A stretch of 38,233 nt of DNA from Myxococcales bacterium. Lineage in GTDB: Bacteria; Myxococcota_A; Polyangia; Polyangiales; SLQV01. Position numbers and translations under genes: made by a program. The notes under the pieces are model-generated. The model had not been told where the DNA came from. It searched no databases and was given only the letters and a program-made list of their open reading frames with translations. The stretch lies in NCBI GenBank assembly GCA_007131285.1, contig SLQV01000002.1, positions 1 through 38,233 of the forward strand, written 5' to 3'. Each line of letters opens with the position of its first letter. The first letter of the stretch is position 1. Positions 115 through 24,016 of the stretch are shown here, piece by piece.

Positions 115-1617
115 ATGTCTAAGGGAGACTATGTGGAAGCTCAAGTAATTGAACGTGAATCTAGAGAGAGTGACGTGTCGTCCTGCGACGCGGTTCTTGA
201 AGCGGTGTTGTTAGAGACTCGTCTGGTGCCAAGCGACGAAGGTTATGCACTAGCCCGGCAGGGTGTGGAAGCGTTTGTCGCCGAGCTCATTGCCACCGAA
301 GCAGGCCCTAGTTCGGTCGATAAGGCGATGGTCGATGCCATGATCAGTGAAGTCGACCGCAAGCTCTCTCTCCAACTTAACGCCATCCTGCATGCGCCGG
401 AGTTTCAAGCGTGCGAATCATCCTGGCGGGGGCTCAAGTTTCTCGTGGACCGCATTGATTTCCGTCAAAACGTCCGCCTCGAAATATTGCCCTGTACGAA
501 GCAGGAGTTGCTGGAGGATTTCGAGGATAAGCCGGAAGTGCCTAAAACAGGACTATATAGGCATGTGTATTCCGCAGAGTACGGCACCTTTGGCGGCGCC
601 CCTTATGGATTGCTGGTATCTGATTTTGACTTTGGTCCTGGACCGCAAGATATTGCGCTGCTTCAGGGTATTGCTTCGGTATCGGCGATGGCGCATGCGC
701 CCTTCGTTGCGAACGCTGGTCCCGAGTTCTTTGGTGTGGACAGCATGACGGAAGTGCCGCGACTCAAGGACCTCGACTCGCTCTTTGATGGTCCTCAGTA
801 TGCGCGTTGGCGTGGATTTCGTGAGTCCGAAGACGCACGGTACGTGGGCCTATGCATGCCACGTTTTCTGCTCAGAGTGCCTTACGGCGAACACACCGTG
901 CCGGTGGCAAGCTTTCATTTCGAAGAGCAGGCCGCGGGAAAGCATGAGGCTTACTTGTGGGGCGCCGCGTCGCTAGCTTTCGCGACCCGCGTCACCGAGA
1001 GCTTTGCGAAGTACCGTTGGTGTCCCAACATTATCGGACCCCAGGCGGGTGGATCAGTCGATGGAATGGCGCTGCATACCTACGAAGCGATGGGCGAAGT
1101 ACAGTCAAAGATACCGACAGAGATTCAGTTAACCGAGCGCCGTGAATTCGAGCTCTCCGAGCAAGGGTTTATCGGACTCGTTCATCGCAAAGGCAGTGAT
1201 AATGCGGCGTTTTTTAGCGCCAATTCCTGTCTTAAGGCGAAGGTGTTCGCTAATACGGAGGCCGGTAAAGCCGCGGAAACGAACTATCGTCTCGGCACAC
1301 AGCTTCCCTATACATTTATCGTCACGCGTCTTGCCCACTACATCAAGGTTCTGCAGCGAGAACAGATCGGTGCCTGGAAAGAAAAGGCTGATCTGCAGCG
1401 CGAACTCAATAAGTGGATCTCCCAGTATGTTGTCGATATGGACAACCCCGCAGCTGAGGTTCGGTCTCGTAAGCCGCTGCGTGAGGCGGCCGTTACCGTC
1501 AACGATATCCCGGGGCAGCCGGGGTGGTACCGCTGCGGTTTAGAGGTGAGGCCGCACTTCAAGTACATGGGGGCGGCTTTCACCCTCTCTCTCGTCGGTC
1601 GCTTAGATAAAAACTAG
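115..1617 (+). CDS. tssC: T6SS contractile sheath large subunit TssC (VipB/EvpB family)
   Basis: This 500-residue protein has the usual TssC length and is collinear with the family. It has an acidic, variable N-terminus, then SSWRGLKFLVDR (about residues 101-112), then PFVANAGPEFFG and WCPNIIGPQAGG (around 302). The C-terminal region contains LPYTFIVTRLAHYIKVLQRE, and the end (GLEVRPHFKYMGAAFTLSLVGRL) matches the gpW/sheath C-terminal domain. TssC pairs with TssB to build the cytoplasmic contractile sheath that propels the Hcp tube. ATG 115 is taken as the start and has only a weak Shine-Dalgarno. An in-frame GTG at 133 has AAGGGAG (121-127) correctly spaced upstream and may be the true start, which would remove six residues. 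It is the second gene of the T6SS run. Confidence 0.95.
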   Translation: MSKGDYVEAQVIERESRESDVSSCDAVLEAVLLETRLVPSDEGYALARQGVEAFVAELIATEAGPSSVDKAMVDAMISEVDRKLSLQLNAILHAPEFQACESSWRGLKFLVDRIDFRQNVRLEILPCTKQELLEDFEDKPEVPKTGLYRHVYSAEYGTFGGAPYGLLVSDFDFGPGPQDIALLQGIASVSAMAHAPFVANAGPEFFGVDSMTEVPRLKDLDSLFDGPQYARWRGFRESEDARYVGLCMPRFLLRVPYGEHTVPVASFHFEEQAAGKHEAYLWGAASLAFATRVTESFAKYRWCPNIIGPQAGGSVDGMALHTYEAMGEVQSKIPTEIQLTERREFELSEQGFIGLVHRKGSDNAAFFSANSCLKAKVFANTEAGKAAETNYRLGTQLPYTFIVTRLAHYIKVLQREQIGAWKEKADLQRELNKWISQYVVDMDNPAAEVRSRKPLREAAVTVNDIPGQPGWYRCGLEVRPHFKYMGAAFTLSLVGRLDKN

Positions 1618-1653
1618 CTTGGTGTGAAGCCCCCCATAGGTCTGGTGGACGGT

Positions 1654-1685
1654 GCGAGCTGCAGGGCGAGCTGCAGGGCGAACTG
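1654..1685 (+). repeat. Short tandem repeat, 12-bp unit, about 2.5 copies
   Basis: The unit GCGAGCTGCAGG occurs twice head-to-tail (1654-1665 and 1666-1677). A third, partial unit with one change (GCGAACTG) follows. The repeat lies in the 304-bp gap between tssC and hcp. The rest of that gap shows no convincing + strand gene. No function is evident. Confidence 0.7.
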
Positions 1686-1921
1686 TCCACTTAATCACGA
1701 GCGATAAGGCTTCAAGTCTGCGGGTACAGTCTGCGCCCTCGATGGAGCCACTCAAGATCAGGCTGGTGGGGCGGTAGGGCGCCGAAAAGTGACGCCAAGC
1801 ATGCAACTGCAACGGGCCTTGCCCGAGTCGATAGGCGAGAGGCTCAGCGAGTATTTTGCGAAAGAGGCTGCGACGTGTTGTCCACAACGGTTCGCGATGT
1901 ACCACAGGAAAGGATAAGAAG

Positions 1922-2416
1922 ATGGCACAAATTTCGACATTTTTATTTCTGAAGTCGGGGGGCTCAGACGTCAAGGGCGAGTCAAGCATGGGGCAGATTG
2001 CCGGGGTAGACGTCAGCGCGGCCATTGAATGTCTGGCCTACGACGAGGCCGTATCGGTGGGCTATGAGCCGCGTTCGGGCAGGCCTACTGGTGACCGCAG
2101 CTATGAGCCTATACGCATTGTTAAGTGGGTAGACCGCTCTTCGCCGGAGCTTGCGCTGTCGGCGACACAATCCAAGGCGTGCACCGCTGAGTTCAAGTTC
2201 TTTCGGCCGTCGGACGTGGACGCTGGCTTGGAGCACTTTTTTACGGTAACGGCCGATGAAGCCAGGGTGCAGCGCATCCGTCGCTACCAAGTCGAGGGAG
2301 ACCAAGCCGCGCCTGCGAAGGAGGAGATTGAGTTCGTGTTCGGCAAGATCACTTGGAAGCATGAGACGGAGAATACGGAGCATGAGGATTCCTGGAAGAA
2401 TCGGAGCGCGGGCTAG
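1922..2416 (+). CDS. hcp: T6SS inner tube protein Hcp (TssD)
   Basis: This 164-residue protein has normal Hcp length. It starts MAQISTFLFLK and keeps the family layout: a GESSMGQIAGVDV segment, the EPIRIVKWVDRSSPEL strand pair (substituting for the usual HxPxxITKxxDxSSP), EFKFFRP, and the C-terminal FVFGKITW followed by HEDSW. Hcp forms hexameric rings that stack into the tube inside the TssBC sheath, and it is secreted. ATG 1922 is preceded by AGGAAAGGATAAGA, a good ribosome site, which argues against the longer frame opening at 1856. It sits 304 bp after tssC with its own leader and 3 bp before tssE. Confidence 0.93.
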   Translation: MAQISTFLFLKSGGSDVKGESSMGQIAGVDVSAAIECLAYDEAVSVGYEPRSGRPTGDRSYEPIRIVKWVDRSSPELALSATQSKACTAEFKFFRPSDVDAGLEHFFTVTADEARVQRIRRYQVEGDQAAPAKEEIEFVFGKITWKHETENTEHEDSWKNRSAG

Positions 2417-2419
2417 CCC

Positions 2420-2833
2420 GTGTTCCGATGCGTTCCGTCTCGCGAGGGTCACCGTGGCCTCTTAGAACGGCTGATAGCAGGACAACGCGAAGGCGGTGAT
2501 ATTTCTGCTTCAATTCTGGCACATTTACAGGCGCTTTTGGCGACACGGGCCGGTGCTCTGCCGCTCCACGCCGACTACGGTTTGCCGGACCTGACCGATG
2601 CGTTGTTGCAAGTGCCTGAGAACGGTCTTGCCACTGTGGAAGCCGCTATCGAAGCGACAATCCGTCATCATGAGCCCCGTTTGACGCATGTGTTCGTGCG
2701 CTGTATCGGGTTGCGCCCCGGAAGCATTCTAGCGTTCGAAATAGAAGGGCGTTTGGCTTCAGATCCGCGCCGCAGTGTTCGTTGTCATACGCTCTTAGGG
2801 CCTGCCGGAGAGGTGCAGATTAGCAGCAGCTAG
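2420..2833 (+). CDS. tssE: T6SS baseplate protein TssE (gp25-like)
   Basis: This 137-residue protein of the gp25/GPW family is a T6SS baseplate wedge component that starts sheath polymerisation. The diagnostic motif DYGLPDLTD lies at residues 52-60, preceded by the helix SILAHLQALLATRAG. Family members usually show a leading LFDRL-like motif, seen here as LLERL. Translation starts at GTG 2420, three bases after the hcp stop, so it is probably coupled to hcp. The stop at 2831-2833 is followed by a 282-bp gap before tssF. That gap holds a decayed miniature element and is an unusual break in an otherwise tight tssE-F-G run. Confidence 0.92.
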   Translation: MFRCVPSREGHRGLLERLIAGQREGGDISASILAHLQALLATRAGALPLHADYGLPDLTDALLQVPENGLATVEAAIEATIRHHEPRLTHVFVRCIGLRPGSILAFEIEGRLASDPRRSVRCHTLLGPAGEVQISSS

Positions 2834-2906
2834 GTGACCGCTATTGAGCACACACATCGTGTGTCGCGAACGGCCCGACGGTATCCAAGCACGCAGCGCG
2901 TGTTGA

Positions 2907-3021
2907 GGCCCCGCGCGCAACGTTGGGCCACCTTGCTGAAATGCCGTGGGGAGCGTGTTCCGGGATTCACTCTCGAAAACTCGCGGGGCATGCGCGTCAA
3001 ATGTCCCCACTGAACAGTTAC
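2907..3021 (+). mobile_element. Decayed miniature element, copy A (IS66-like ends)
   Basis: The right half aligns by eye over about 75 bases with the intact copy at 21412-21568. They share TGGGGAG, GGGATTCACTC, a hairpin GGGGCAT/ATGTCCC, and the right end CTGAACAGTTAC at 3010-3021. The left half is diverged; weak similarity may extend back to the tssE stop. No flanking target duplication is visible, so the insertion is old. It separates tssE from tssF. Confidence 0.65.
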
Positions 3022-3115
3022 CGAAAGACACCGGGGAATGTGCCGCTGAAATCCCCGGGAGTGTTGCGCGCCAACACACGCCCGAATGATGTCCAGCCAA
3101 GTGAGGAGACGCACT

Positions 3116-4879
3116 GTGTTTAGTCAAAGGTTTCAGAGCGAGCTCGGCTTTCTGCGCGAGATGGGGCGTGAGTTTAGTGAGCACCATCCGGCTCTAGCGG
3201 GAGCGTTCTCCGAGCGGGGAGGTGACCCCGATGTCGAGCGGTTAATCGAAGGGTTCGCGTTCCTGACGGCGGATGTCAAGGCCCGGGCTGAAGATGCTCA
3301 CCCCTTTCTGATCGATGCACTTGCTGAGCTTGTCGCGCCCCAACTACTTCGGCCGCAGCCCGCCGCCACGCTTGTGGAGTTCTCACCAGACCTACGGCGC
3401 ATGCGGGGACGCTACACGCTGTCGGCAGGGACGCCACTCGGATCACGTGCGCGTCCTGAGACGGGTGTCCCCGGACGTTGCATCTTCCGGACAAGTGAAT
3501 CGGTTGAGCTTCGGCCATTGGCCTGCGAAAGCGCTTGCCTCGAACAGAGCTCCCCCGAGATATCGACGATTCGTTTGCGGATGCGGCGCGCGCAGAATGT
3601 GACACCGGAGGCACTCGCAGGCTCTGTCACCCTCCACATTGCAGCATCGTGGGCGAGTGCCTCGGCGCTGGCGCTTTGGTTCGCTCGCCATTGGATGTCG
3701 ACCACGCTGCGCCTTTCAGACGGTCGCGCACGGGCGCTTGGTGCGCGTGCCACGACGCTTCTTGCTGCACAGGAATCGGGTTCCGTATTTCCTTGGCCAG
3801 CGCGTGTTCCCGACGGTGCACGGCGGCTGCAAGAGTATTTTTCGCTACCCGAAAGTCACTTAGGCGTCCGCGTTGACGGACTCGAGGCGGCCGCCGCTTC
3901 CATAGATGACCAATTCGTTCTGGAGTTTCGCTTCGAAGGAGCGCCCGCGTTGCCTGAATCCCTGCCTAGCGACGCCTTTCGCTTGCATGTTGTGCCGGCT
4001 GTCAATGTCTTTGTCTCAAGCGGCGAGCCGCTGCCGATTGGTGACGGGCGGCTTGAGTACCGGGTGCAAGCGGCGGGGGTGCCATTGCAAGGGAGCGAAG
4101 TCCTCGAGGTTAAGTCAGCCCAGGTGTCTGAGGGCGGCGTGAGTGCGGGTGCTCGCCGACGCGTGCGGAGTCTTGAGGTCTTCGGGGCGCCCGACCCTGG
4201 TCCCGCGGCTACAAGTGCAACCTCGAGTTATCGGTTACGTCGTAGCCGTTCGCCGGTTGACGGCGCTCTCGATACTTACATTACGCCGCTGGCGGGAGCA
4301 GAGCCGTTTTCGGCGGATGCCGTCCTGTCTACGGAGTTGCTCTGCACGCAGCGCCGCATCCCTGTGGGGCTGCGGGTGGGCGACGTCTGCGAAGCTATCG
4401 AAGGGTCTCCTGCAGGCCTCACGTTCCGCAATATCTCGCCGGTCAGTTGTCCGTTGACACCGCCGCTAGGCGAGGAGCGCCTTTGGCGTTTGCTGCGGCA
4501 GGTGACTAAGGGAAGTCAGGGAGTCAACAGTGCAAACGCGCTCCGAGCATTGCTGAGGGATCTCAATCTGCAGAGGGGGCAGGACCTGAGCGCGAGTGCG
4601 GTCAATGACCGCCGCATCGAGGCGATTCGTTCGCTTGAACGACGCGCAGCGATGTTTCCCTGTCGCGGATTTCCGCTAAGGGGGGTCGAAACCGTCATTA
4701 CGCTTGACCTCGACGGCTTTTCTGGAGTTGGAGATGCGTATTTATTCGGTGCTGCCCTGGACGTGCTGCTGAGTGCTCAGTTGCCACTCAATGCGGTTCA
4801 TCGACTACGAATCATGCTGTACCCAGAGCAGGGTACCTTCGTGTGGCAACCCCGTAGCGGTTTTGAGGTGGTCCGATGA
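3116..4879 (+). CDS. tssF: T6SS baseplate protein TssF
   Basis: This 587-residue protein of the TssF/VasA family (usual length about 580-620) is a wedge component that, with TssG and TssE, forms the T6SS baseplate. The N-terminus MFSQRFQSELGFLREMGREF followed by HPALAG (residues 24-29) is typical. Further matches are LIEGFAFLTADVKARAEDA and LAELVAPQLLRPQPAATLVEF. GTG 3116 is chosen over ATG 3086 because GAGGAG (3103-3108) lies 7 bases upstream and the product then aligns with the family start. The 3' end overlaps tssG by four bases (ATGA), implying translational coupling. Confidence 0.93.
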   Translation: MFSQRFQSELGFLREMGREFSEHHPALAGAFSERGGDPDVERLIEGFAFLTADVKARAEDAHPFLIDALAELVAPQLLRPQPAATLVEFSPDLRRMRGRYTLSAGTPLGSRARPETGVPGRCIFRTSESVELRPLACESACLEQSSPEISTIRLRMRRAQNVTPEALAGSVTLHIAASWASASALALWFARHWMSTTLRLSDGRARALGARATTLLAAQESGSVFPWPARVPDGARRLQEYFSLPESHLGVRVDGLEAAAASIDDQFVLEFRFEGAPALPESLPSDAFRLHVVPAVNVFVSSGEPLPIGDGRLEYRVQAAGVPLQGSEVLEVKSAQVSEGGVSAGARRRVRSLEVFGAPDPGPAATSATSSYRLRRSRSPVDGALDTYITPLAGAEPFSADAVLSTELLCTQRRIPVGLRVGDVCEAIEGSPAGLTFRNISPVSCPLTPPLGEERLWRLLRQVTKGSQGVNSANALRALLRDLNLQRGQDLSASAVNDRRIEAIRSLERRAAMFPCRGFPLRGVETVITLDLDGFSGVGDAYLFGAALDVLLSAQLPLNAVHRLRIMLYPEQGTFVWQPRSGFEVVR

Positions 4880-7490: not shown

Positions 7491-7786
7491 TGAAGATGCG
7501 ATAGAGCGATAGATGGTCCCAAGCAAGGTAACCGGTCAGCGGGGCCAGGCGAGACGATACATCCCTTGGCTTTAGCGAGTGAAGTCCAGAAACATCTACA
7601 AAAAACCTGAAGCAGCGCGAGGTGTCCCCTCCGGCCCTCGCTCTTGCTTTCAGAGCTTTGGCTTTCTGGGCGGTCTTGGACGGCCGCCGAGCAAGCGCTG
7701 GCGAGCATTCCCTTGTTCTCCGTAGTGAGTGGGCAAGCGATGCGTCGCACGCAGCAGTGCGTAAACGAGCGTGAACGCCTTAGCCA

Positions 7787-19775: not shown

Positions 19776-19901
19776 GCAAGCGTTCAGGGGACAGGGCGCG
19801 CGAACAATATGCACTGGGAGGCGAGCTGGGTGGTAGGACGCCGCGCAGCATTAGGTGTTTGGTGCGGCGGGGTTGCGGGAAGTGCGTTCAAAGGCGCTTA
19901 C
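19776..19901 (+). mobile_element. Decayed miniature element, copy D (hairpin lost)
   Basis: The left end GCAAGCGTTCAGGGG (19776-19790) matches the intact copies. The core CGCGCAGCATTAGGTGTTTG and the GGGGTTGCGGGA segment also align with them. The right end is reduced to GCGCTTAC at 19894-19901, and the hairpin segment is deleted, leaving 126 bp. No target duplication is visible. It lies upstream of cdnL in the 801-bp gap 19299-20099, which holds no recognisable gene. Confidence 0.6.
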
Positions 19902-19966
19902 GGGAAATGACGCGGCGCGCTTAGTGATGCACGCAGAAGTTCTCGGACAGAGACGGAAGCAGAAGG

Positions 19967-20933: not shown

Positions 20934-21383
20934 AGTTCAGGCCTCCAGTGCCGCTAGGCGGCATGATGTTGGGAGCCCAGTCTAGTACACTTTACTTCTC
21001 GATGCGACGTTAGGCGCCACGAGAAGAACGTTCGGCAGCTAGTTGAAGGTCGCCTTGGGCCAATGGCACACGTAAGTGCTCAAACGGCGTCGCCGTTTAT
21101 TCCACTGCCACGACGCAAGCGTGTTCGGCTATGGGCGTGAGCCGGCTTACGGGCCAGACTTAAATCCACACGAACCGTGCGTGCTGCCGGCTTTTGGCTG
21201 CGGGCGCGCTCGAGTCGAGCGCCGCCGTCGAAGTGCGCAACCCGCTTAAGCGACCACGCGCGCCCCACCACGTTCCTACTGAGTCTCAGCAGACAGTGAA
21301 AGAGTCGCCTCCGAAGATACGAGCGCGTGTCGTCAAAACACGCTGATCTATAACGGAACTCTTCGGAACGTATGTTACGAAAT
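20934..21383. other. Noncoding upstream gap with a perfect palindrome
   Basis: No gene is evident. A compact palindrome AAACGGCGTCGCCGTTT lies at 21082-21098 with no flanking T-run and no obvious partner gene. The part next to 20934 must contain the promoter of the OmpA/MotB-like gene. I cannot identify a strong -35/-10 pair. Confidence 0.4.
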
Positions 21384-21625
21384 GCACAGGAGTTGTCGGG
21401 AGTGAATCCTGGTAATCGTTCAGCGGGTCAAGACAGCGAAAGCGTCGCAGGAAAGAGCAAGTGGGCGCTGGGACCCCACGCGCAGCTTTAGGTTTGTGGG
21501 GGAGGGTTTGCGGGATTCACTCCCGTAAACCCGGGGGCATGCGTGTAAAATGCCCCCTGAACGCTTACGAATCCTGCAACTCCGTTCCAAAAAAAACTAG
21601 GGCTGTGCGCGAGGCCGCCGAGTTC
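21384..21625 (-). mobile_element. Older inverted miniature element, copy E, split by copy B
   Basis: When copy B and one target duplication are removed, bases 21381-21411 join 21577-21625. The joined sequence aligns with the reverse complement of copy B, including a 12-base exact run GGGAGTGAATCC and, further on, CTAGGGCTG against CCTAAAGCTG. About two thirds of positions match over about 70 bases by eye. The intact copy therefore appears to have landed inside a decayed relative of opposite orientation. Outer boundaries are unclear. Confidence 0.5.
21412..21568 (+). mobile_element. Intact miniature inverted-repeat element, copy B (157 bp)
   Basis: Terminal inverted repeats are GTAATCGTTCAG (21412-21423) and CTGAACGCTTAC (21557-21568). 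The element is flanked by a perfect 8-bp direct repeat GAATCCTG (21404-21411 and 21569-21576). GTAA ends plus 8-bp duplications are the hallmark of IS66-family transposition. It encodes nothing. A hairpin GGGGGCAT/ATGCCCCC (21533-21540, 21550-21557) adjoins the right end. Confidence 0.88.
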
Positions 21626-21745
21626 CCTAAATACTTACGCTTTTAGGCTCGGATATTATTGAAGGTATCTCTACGAAATTGCAGCTAGTTATGGAATCAA
21701 GGGCCAAAAACCTGTCGGCTGTCGATATAATTTTGAATTACTTTC

Positions 21746-21775
21746 TTGACACCTAAAAGCGCCGCAAAATACGTT
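21746..21775 (+). promoter_or_regulatory. Candidate sigma-70 promoter of the histone H1-like gene
   Basis: TTGACA (21746-21751) is a perfect -35. After an 18-base spacer comes TACGTT (21770-21775), a weak -10 that matches the consensus at three positions. The surrounding AT-rich stretch (21655-21790) stands out from the GC-rich neighbourhood. Transcription from here would leave a leader of about 30 bases before ATG 21811. Confidence 0.45.
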
Positions 21776-21810
21776 TAACCTAACAATAGATCCGTGGAAG
21801 GGGCCAAATT

Positions 21811-22977
21811 ATGGCGAAACAAAAAGAATCCGTGCTTGCAAAGAAAACCGCGAAGCAAGCGCCAGTCTCGAAGTCAACCAAAGTGGCCGAGGCAGCAACG
21901 CCTTTAGCGTCAGAAAAGAAGCCGGCGGTCGCAAAGACTAAGACGCCTAAGCGTGCGGCTGCCAAGAAGCCCGCGGCCAAGCCGAAAGCTCAAAAGACGG
22001 CGAGCACAAGTCTGGTTGAGGCGCGGTCGTCAAGGAGCAAAGCTGACGGGATTAAGGCGAAAGCGGTCACCGCTGCCAAGAAACCCGCTGCCAAGAAAGC
22101 CGGCAACAAAACGGCCACTGCCAAGAAAACCACTGCCAAGAAACCCACGGCCACGAAGCCCGCAGCTAAAACGGCTACGGCCAAGAAAACAACTGTGAAA
22201 GTCGCTGAGGCAGCAAAAGCAAGAGCAACCAAGTCAGGCACAAAAACCACGGTTGTTAGCAAAAAATCTGGCAAAAAGAGCCCGGCTAAGGTCAGTCCCT
22301 CGAAGGTCGGCACCGCCAAAAAGGGCGCGACGAAAAGCGGCGTAGCGGTGAAACCTGCGCGTTCGAATCAGGGAGCGGCGCGCAACACCTCCAGTGCTAA
22401 AGCGGTCCAGGATCGAACGGCCAAGGGCTTGTCAGCCAAGAAGTCAGCGGTTGCCAAAGTGGCTAAGAAAGTTAAAGGGGCTGCGAAGGTAGCCTTGTCA
22501 CCAAAAACGGCACCAAAAACGGCCAACAAGTCAACCAAGGTGACGACCACTAAAGGGACCGAAAAGTCGGCCTCTGCGGCCAAGTCCGCACCTAAGGCGC
22601 CAACAGTTGCAAAACCCAAGGGACCGGTACTGAGTGATGCGTCCTCGCGGAAGAAAGTAGCTGCCCCTAAGCCGAAGGCGAAAGCAGCGCTGCGGGCAGG
22701 GACGTCCAAGCTAAAGAGTGCGACGCTTAAGCAATCGACCATGAGGCCAACGGTGGTCAAAGTGGTGGCGCCGACGGCGGACGCTGCGGGCAAGAAGATA
22801 CAGACTCCGCCTCTCAGGCAGTCGAGCGCGCGCGGCAAGGCGCGGCTGAGCCTCGCCCCCAAACTCGCCTCGGTGGATGTGGCGGCGCCAAAAAAGAGTC
22901 CCGGTGGTGCGAAAGCGACCCGTTTGCGTGTTGCAGCTAGCGCATCGGTGCGGGACAGCGCCGCGCTTAAGGCATAG
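21811..22977 (+). CDS. Histone H1-like lysine/alanine-rich DNA-binding protein
   Basis: This 388-residue protein is made almost wholly of Lys, Ala, Thr, Ser, Pro and Val. It has many AKK, KKPAAKK and KKTTAKK repeats, densest at residues 45-130, and no hydrophobic core or membrane segment. This composition matches bacterial histone H1-like nucleoid proteins, which bind DNA through disordered basic tails; similar proteins occur in myxobacteria and chlamydiae. Pro-Lys-Arg (PKRAAAKK) tracts resemble AT-hook-like elements but lack the strict RGRP core. GGAAGGGG lies before ATG 21811. It stands alone between two noncoding regions carrying miniature elements. Long open frames on its complementary strand are composition artefacts. 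Confidence 0.85.
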   Translation: MAKQKESVLAKKTAKQAPVSKSTKVAEAATPLASEKKPAVAKTKTPKRAAAKKPAAKPKAQKTASTSLVEARSSRSKADGIKAKAVTAAKKPAAKKAGNKTATAKKTTAKKPTATKPAAKTATAKKTTVKVAEAAKARATKSGTKTTVVSKKSGKKSPAKVSPSKVGTAKKGATKSGVAVKPARSNQGAARNTSSAKAVQDRTAKGLSAKKSAVAKVAKKVKGAAKVALSPKTAPKTANKSTKVTTTKGTEKSASAAKSAPKAPTVAKPKGPVLSDASSRKKVAAPKPKAKAALRAGTSKLKSATLKQSTMRPTVVKVVAPTADAAGKKIQTPPLRQSSARGKARLSLAPKLASVDVAAPKKSPGGAKATRLRVAASASVRDSAALKA

Positions 22978-23060
22978 ACTGCTCCACTTCGAGCGGACAC
23001 ATCTCGGAATAAGCTGTGTGACTCGCGCTCGGGCCGCGGGCGTCAACGAAGGGTCTTAGC

Positions 23061-23117
23061 CGGCGTTCCGGCCTCGCCGAGGATGCCCTAGCCTAGCGCA
23101 AGGCTAGCGTTTCTTCG
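23061..23117 (+). terminator. Possible terminator after the histone H1-like gene
   Basis: Two successive hairpins occur: CGGCG/CGCCG (23061-23079) and CTAGCC/GGCTAG (23088-23107). The second is followed by CGTTTCTTC. They lie 85-140 bases past the stop. The interrupted T-run makes this a modest candidate. Confidence 0.4.
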
Positions 23118-23228
23118 GGGCTCGCGGGCGAGTAGGCCAACGCGTGCGTGTTATCGCAGCCTCGCCATGGAAACACGCACACCGAAATGGTCCCGCTACC
23201 GCGCTTCCGTCGGGTTCTCAGAGTTCAC

Positions 23229-23344
23229 CCTTTAGGGGCGCTTGGGACTAGGGCGTGCCGCACTGGGTTTCGGGCGCATTCAACGCCAGACGTCTGGGAC
23301 AGATATCACGAATATCGAACACCCGTGGTGCCCCCCATTGGCTG
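23229..23344 (+). mobile_element. Tentative highly decayed miniature element, copy G
   Basis: The sequence loosely follows copy C in order: CTTTAGG, then GCATTCA, then CTGGGACA, then TGCCCCCC and a GGCTGC end. Individual words match but spacing drifts, so chance resemblance is possible. It immediately precedes intact copy C. The remaining bases of the 22978-23392 gap hold no gene I can support. Confidence 0.25.
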
Positions 23345-23392
23345 CGGGGAACATCTCGAAAGCCTGTTAGGCTTGGTCGACTTGCTCGCAAG

Positions 23393-23550
23393 GTAGGCGT
23401 TCAGGGAGTCGAGAAAGCGAAAACGCTGCAGGAACGCGCCGCGTGGGCGGTGGGTCCTCACGCGCAGCTTTAGGTGTTTGGGGAGGGTGTGCGAGATTCA
23501 TGCCTGAAAACCTGGGACATTTTGTAAAAATGTCCCCCCTGAACGGTTGC
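23393..23550 (+). mobile_element. Intact miniature inverted-repeat element, copy C (158 bp)
   Basis: Ends are GTAGGCGTTCAGGG (23393-23406) and CCCTGAACGGTTGC (23537-23550). A perfect 8-bp direct repeat CTCGCAAG flanks it (23385-23392 and 23551-23558). The hairpin GGGACATTTT/AAAATGTCCC (23514-23523, 23527-23536; loop GTA) is a perfect 10-bp stem. The core shares ACGCGCAGCTTTAGGT with copy B. No coding capacity. Confidence 0.88.
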
Positions 23551-23852
23551 CTCGCAAGGTACGCTGAGGCGTCACTTGCGTGCTCTGAGTCAGTCCACGC
23601 CAGCCTCTAAGGTTTGGTCCGCTGCGACCCTGCGCTCCGCCTCGCACGTTGCCTATCATGCGGGTTCAGCCTTTTTCTTCAGCGTCGTAAACCCCGGAGC
23701 ACCGCATGGACTTCCTGGTTCAGCGGAGGTCGCCAAGCTAATCGGGGTGGACGCGCCGGTTCGCTGTGCCGACGCCTCCCTCGAAGGGCGCCGCCGGGGA
23801 GTGGCTCTCCTGCATCAAGCTGCGGCTGCTTCCTGCACGTGGCGGCTCGGCC

Positions 23853-24016
23853 GCAACGCAACAGGAGAGGGGAAAGTTGAACAAAAACGCGAAAGGTTTT
23901 TGGGAGTGAAGCTCGAGGTCTCTCCCCGCCGCACCTCAGGAAGGTGACCTAAAGCTCCGCGCGGGGCATTCAACAGACGGCAGACTTTTGTGCGTGCTCG
24001 ACCCCTGAACGCCGAC
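23853..24016 (-). mobile_element. Decayed inverted miniature element, copy F
   Basis: Aligned with the reverse complement of copies B and C. It starts GCAACGCAACAGG (23853), has GGTTTTTGGGAGTGAA, then the core ACCTAAAGCTCCGCG (copy B: ACCTAAAGCTGCGCG), and ends CGACCCCTGAACGCCGAC at 24016 (copy C: CGACTCCCTGAACGCCTAC). The length, 164 bp, fits the family. No target duplication remains. Confidence 0.6.

Follow-up and report, generated by a model that had tools for sequence, protein, structure and literature searches.

A recently mobile family of IS66-type miniature inverted-repeat elements with a structured core of apparently separate origin in a genus of Polyangiales

Miniature inverted-repeat elements (MITEs) arise most usually by internal deletion of a parental insertion sequence (PMC3189936), and described examples such as MITEPsy1 (PMC3189936) and MITECca01 (PMC9769881) are short, non-coding, multi-copy elements that carry the inverted ends of the parents to which they are attributed (IS5-like and IS982, respectively) and are mobilized in trans. 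The ends of IS66-family elements start with GTAA (PMC11946415), and ISBst12-type members of this family, among them ISDge4 and the IS66 elements of Kovacikia minuta and Chroococcidiopsis, possess a single tnpC encoding a DDE_Tnp_IS66 domain. ISDge4 is an active single-ORF IS66 with the terminal inverted repeat GTAACTGCTCAGCA and an 8-bp repeat, and its transposition has been reported (PMC12898284). The Kovacikia and Chroococcidiopsis elements, which are plasmid-borne and encode the closest intact relatives (47% and 45%, respectively) of the TnpC described below, are themselves intact (1587 and 1585 bp) and have the ends GTAACTGTTCA/GTAAGCGTTCAGGGGG and GTAACCGTTCAAGGGG/GTAATTGTTCACGGGG as well as perfect 8-bp duplications (CCAAAATG and GTGAAAAC, in the same order). 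The elements described here, from a Myxococcales bacterium, make up, to judge from their copies, a genuine IS66-type MITE family that has moved recently and is of a well-known kind; with a probability of roughly 0.9, they are read as short non-coding elements with IS66 ends that would be mobilized in trans by IS66 and that hold a foreign structured core between those ends.

The window, i.e., the whole stretch of 38,233 nucleotides that was analysed, is contig C21 of a 3.1-Mb draft genome in 216 contigs (G000), for which the genome of a sister species (G001) is available. The first-pass annotation had placed two intact copies, A and B, in the window, and their coordinates, lengths, and differing perfect 8-bp duplications all proved exact (Table 1); its statements that the elements encode nothing and that the window is devoid of a transposase hold as well, in that no ORF of at least 80 aa was found inside either copy and the sole IS66 DDE-domain match of the genome lies on another contig. 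Between copies A and B, positions 21811-22977 hold a 388-aa Lys/Ala-rich, histone-H1-like repetitive ORF without a Pfam match. Five more copies inside the window, all of them decayed, had been overlooked, including an older inverted copy in whose second-hairpin loop the duplication of copy A (GAATCCTG) sits, the result being a nested insertion. Another of the decayed copies is located just upstream of tssF, within a stretch of type VI secretion genes (115-4879) that includes those for the sheath protein VipB (115-1617) and TssF (3086-4879).

Table 1. MITE copies and associated features in the window (R1, covariance model built on the MITE core).
Feature	Position	Strand	Details
MITE copy A	21412..21568	+	157 bp; ends GTAATCGTTCAGCGGG / GTAAGCGTTCAGGGGG; R1 103.2 bits
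Target duplication of copy A, left	21404..21411	.	8 bp, GAATCCTG
Target duplication of copy A, right	21569..21576	.	8 bp, GAATCCTG
Structured core of copy A	21446..21532	+	two hairpins; part common to other families of the order
MITE copy B	23393..23550	+	158 bp; ends GTAGGCGTTCAGGGAG / GCAACCGTTCAGGGGG; R1 66.1 bits
Target duplication of copy B, left	23385..23392	.	8 bp, CTCGCAAG
Target duplication of copy B, right	23551..23558	.	8 bp, CTCGCAAG
Decayed inverted copy, older than and split by copy A	21355..21674 (approximate; encloses copy A and one duplication)	-	joined flanks vs MITE 65% identity; score 101 vs at most 63 across 300 shuffles
Decayed copy between ORF 2420-2833 and tssF	2834..3021	+	R1 E=5e-6; 65% identity
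Decayed copy	7528..7683	-	R1 E=6e-4; 66% identity
Decayed copy	19776..19941	+	62% identity; score 92 vs shuffle maximum of 63; R1 match only E=0.17
Decayed copy	23858..24011	-	60% identity; score 81.5 vs shuffle maximum of 63

Outside the window the family is large. Copy A, used as a blast query, has 45 matches in its own genome (best 1.6e-77), and R1 identifies 66 copies there and at least 75 in G001, the latter figure being a count of scored candidates. The end GTAACNGTTCAGGGG, one mismatch being allowed, is present at 64 sites in G000 and 235 in G001 (0-1 for the reversed control), and the pairing of ends yielded 55 distinct complete copies from the two genomes. These are 154-175 bp long, carry no transposase gene and no ORF of at least 80 aa, and divide into a longer and a shorter class according to whether an insert of ~13-16 nt is present; hairpin 1 likewise occurs in two variants. 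The terminal inverted repeats of ~16 bp (GTAACYGTTCAGGGGG) start with GTAA, as IS66-family ends do, and the 8-bp target duplication also fits IS66. Since copies range from near-identical (some of these at contig ends) down to ~60% identity, the family appears to have been long in motion. Core-only copies were sought in the own genome among 19 weak or partial matches, most of which can still be seen to carry IS66-type ends where these should lie; four have duplications matching at 7-8 of 8 bp, and for a few, decay precludes a verdict. A second palindromic repeat of ~150 bp, with ends CTGAGCSATCCCC / GGGGATCGCTCAG and apparent 9-bp duplications (GGTCAAGAC, GGTCCAGAT, and GTTCAGGGG), is nested in several MITE copies (L162:307-631, L058:1501-1842, and L161:246-574) and looks like another MITE family.

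Perfect 8-bp duplications, 34 of them distinct, flank 35 of the 55 complete copies, and seven further copies match at 7 of 8 positions, while a perfect duplication is expected by chance at ~2e-5 per copy and a shifted-flank control gave 0, except for 3 at one offset. Even some strongly diverged copies have retained their duplications, and two copies that lie side by side in G001 have one in common (TACCAGTC). An empty site was recovered for the copy at G000:C189:378-536 (L002:378-536; duplication GCCGTGAG), which lies inside a putative photolyase/cryptochrome-like ORF, so named from sequence resemblance only: its joined flanks align with the homologue on contig C52 of G001 over 292 bp without a gap (79.5%). 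Contig C334 of G001, which is syntenic with 18.7-26.2 kb of the window, has no MITE copy across the syntenic 6.7 kb, where both window copies are absent; the spacers around copies A and B have diverged too far there for a base-exact empty site. The first-pass annotation had taken the differing duplications as evidence of transposition and had proposed looking for many duplicated copies and for empty sites in relatives, and both searches came out in its favor. At the level of sequence, then, the target duplications, the empty site, and the absence from syntenic DNA demonstrate that the family has been mobile.

The driver is likely a single-gene ISBst12-type IS66, known in both genomes from tnpC fragments that have the same 16-bp terminus and mostly lie at contig ends. 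In G000, the only IS66 DDE-domain match is a C-terminal TnpC fragment (matching PF03050) that runs off the end of contig C3 and adjoins GTTCAGGGGGGG; the right end beside this tnpC reads ATAACTGTTCAGGGGGGG, with one mismatch to the MITE end (ATAACTG). In G001, GTAA[CG]CGTTCAGGGGG adjoins the 3' ends of tnpC at several sites. Four of these sites run off the ends of their contigs, a pattern to be expected where an element in many copies interrupts assembly. Inward of the IS66 left end, GTAACCGTTCAGGGGGG, come a promoter-like TTGACA and then the N-terminal region of tnpC (DUF6444), all within ~60 bp, which leaves no room for tnpA or tnpB and thus suggests the single-gene ISBst12 type. An IS66 element with ends matching those of the MITE had been anticipated in the first-pass annotation, as had mobilization in trans; the former is represented by the fragments just described, and the latter we infer with confidence from the ends common to MITE and IS66. 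Neither assembly contains a complete tnpC. An IS66 left end (L081:1480-1510, contig C67 of G001) and a right end (L053:130-165, contig C48 of G001) are both flanked by CTCCTGGCTT and may bound a single insertion, although a shift of 2 bp keeps the flanks from forming a clean 8-bp duplication.

Between the ends, the likeness to IS66 disappears: on either side, the MITE follows the assembled IS66 ends for ~16 bp and no further. The whole MITE folds strongly (z -4.2), and its two hairpins have two-sided changes in 18 cells, as compared with 8.3 plus or minus 2.2 in shuffled columns, a signal whose value as evidence of selection is weakened by the kinship of the copies. Of 55 further genomes from the order that were scanned with R1, eight gave matches that were weak but repeated. 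When aligned directly, the MITE core and the foreign cores (G012, G029, G030, G053, and G018) give z values of 9.2-14.6 against dinucleotide shuffles, and the G053 elements align to MITE positions 21-145, including a palindrome, GGGGGCATTTT..AAAATGCCCCC, not covered by the R1 model. Chance matching of GC-rich sequence was excluded as a source of these matches by backward-pattern controls (0) together with the shuffle z of 9-15. No IS66-type ends were found within 120 bp of the foreign cores, with 7-10 of 15 positions matching as opposed to 12-15 for the MITEs, so the intergenic repeats of these other families have a core homologous to that of the MITE and are devoid of its ends. By these alignments, the MITE interior is not IS66, and the relatives of its core are intergenic repeats of other members of the order.

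Several side observations concern these relatives. Neither the window region nor the foreign cores gave a relevant match in Rfam; miRNA-model hits in L034 were set aside, as they come from a plain inverted repeat that is not part of the core, and one such repeat of ~76 bp lies directly upstream of the core in G018 (L034:1396-1472). Several foreign cores apparently sit just after a stop codon, according to a crude check based on unannotated and unreliable ORF calls. The structured intergenic repeat of these genomes, with the motif GCAAGYGGGGCTGGGGCCCCRCGCGCAGC and no Rfam match, is numerous in two of them, G012 holding 24 copies and G029 47 (loci L125, L126, L131, L132, L137, and L138), and is also represented in G053 (L200-L203) and G030 (L204-L210).

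The alternative that fares best is that the MITE is a classical internal-deletion derivative of IS66, as opposed to IS66 ends around a foreign core. This is the commonest origin of MITEs in the literature; nevertheless, since MITE and IS66 share only their ~16-bp ends, the MITE is not a plain internal deletion of IS66, and the match of its interior to intergenic elements of other families speaks against such a descent as well, which makes this origin improbable. Weaker still is the proposal that the MITE owes its movement to a transposase from another family with 8-bp duplications, e.g., IS256 or IS1595. Duplications of 8 bp are by themselves not specific to IS66, and the fragmentary state of the IS66 transposase in both assemblies would suit this proposal, but the same 16-bp terminus abuts both the 3' and the 5' ends of IS66 tnpC at several sites, and the same kind of ends is found on intact IS66 relatives, so a driver from outside IS66 seems very improbable. 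The last alternative, a conserved structured non-coding RNA or regulatory element that is immobile at fixed intergenic sites, could draw on the strong predicted structure, some compensatory changes in the hairpins, and the end-less homologous cores of other families, but it is already refuted within this genus, and retains next to no probability, given target duplications that differ at 34 sites, an exact empty site, a syntenic region in the sister that is free of copies, and the insertion of one MITE copy inside another.

For the preferred reading, that of an IS66-mobilized MITE with a foreign core, the following course may be envisaged. The MITE ends are those of the apparently single-gene, ISBst12-type IS66 of the same genome and its sister, and IS66 TnpC would presumably recognize them in trans and insert the MITE with an 8-bp target duplication; by analogy with ISDge4, transposition may be of the copy-out type. 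The structured core would have existed beforehand; in this genus it most likely came to lie between captured IS66 ends, after which it was amplified. Such a capture of an existing repeat is the simplest reading of the sequences, and the reverse, wherein many copies in other families shed their IS66 ends, is the less likely course. A more ambitious version, in which an order-wide structured repeat, functional or otherwise mobile, was captured by IS66 ends in one genus and spread to ~70 copies per genome with its hairpins under selection, is offered only tentatively, as we would sooner doubt than accept it in full.

As far as could be found, the family is undescribed: no description of an IS66-derived MITE was encountered in a literature search whose coverage of subscription journals was thin and which left ISfinder aside, and the structured repeat of the order, having no Rfam match, appears to be undescribed as well. 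The evidence for this IS66-type MITE family is unusually complete: its copies differ in age, some insertions are nested in others, one site is found empty in the sister genome, and there is a plausible driver. Moreover, the occurrence of the core with transposon ends in one group and without them in related families provides a test of MITE origins other than internal deletion.

Among 145 genomes of the order, complete two-ended elements are confined to this genus, and a scan of ~85,000 species genomes (from which the window's own records are possibly absent) found elements with both ends solely in the sister MAG and in two Microcystis. The Microcystis elements, 158 bp long (M. viridis and M. 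wesenbergii; L092:4815-4972 and L094:2964-3121), resemble the MITE in that both ends match GTAACNGTTCAGGGG, whereas their interior is unrelated and no 8-bp duplication is present at the locus; as the ends alone match, the idea of a recent exchange of DNA between Microcystis and the myxobacteria was set aside. Like the IS66 elements of Kovacikia minuta and Chroococcidiopsis and like ISDge4, the MITE combines GTAACYGTTCAGGGGG-type ends with an 8-bp target duplication, but it lacks their transposase gene and has only the termini in common with the ~1.59-kb cyanobacterial elements. Lastly, it parallels MITEPsy1 (PMC3189936) and MITECca01 (PMC9769881) in its small size, its non-coding and multi-copy nature, its insertion-sequence ends, and its probable mobilization in trans, and departs from them in that its ends are those of IS66 and in possessing a structured core that also occurs outside such ends.
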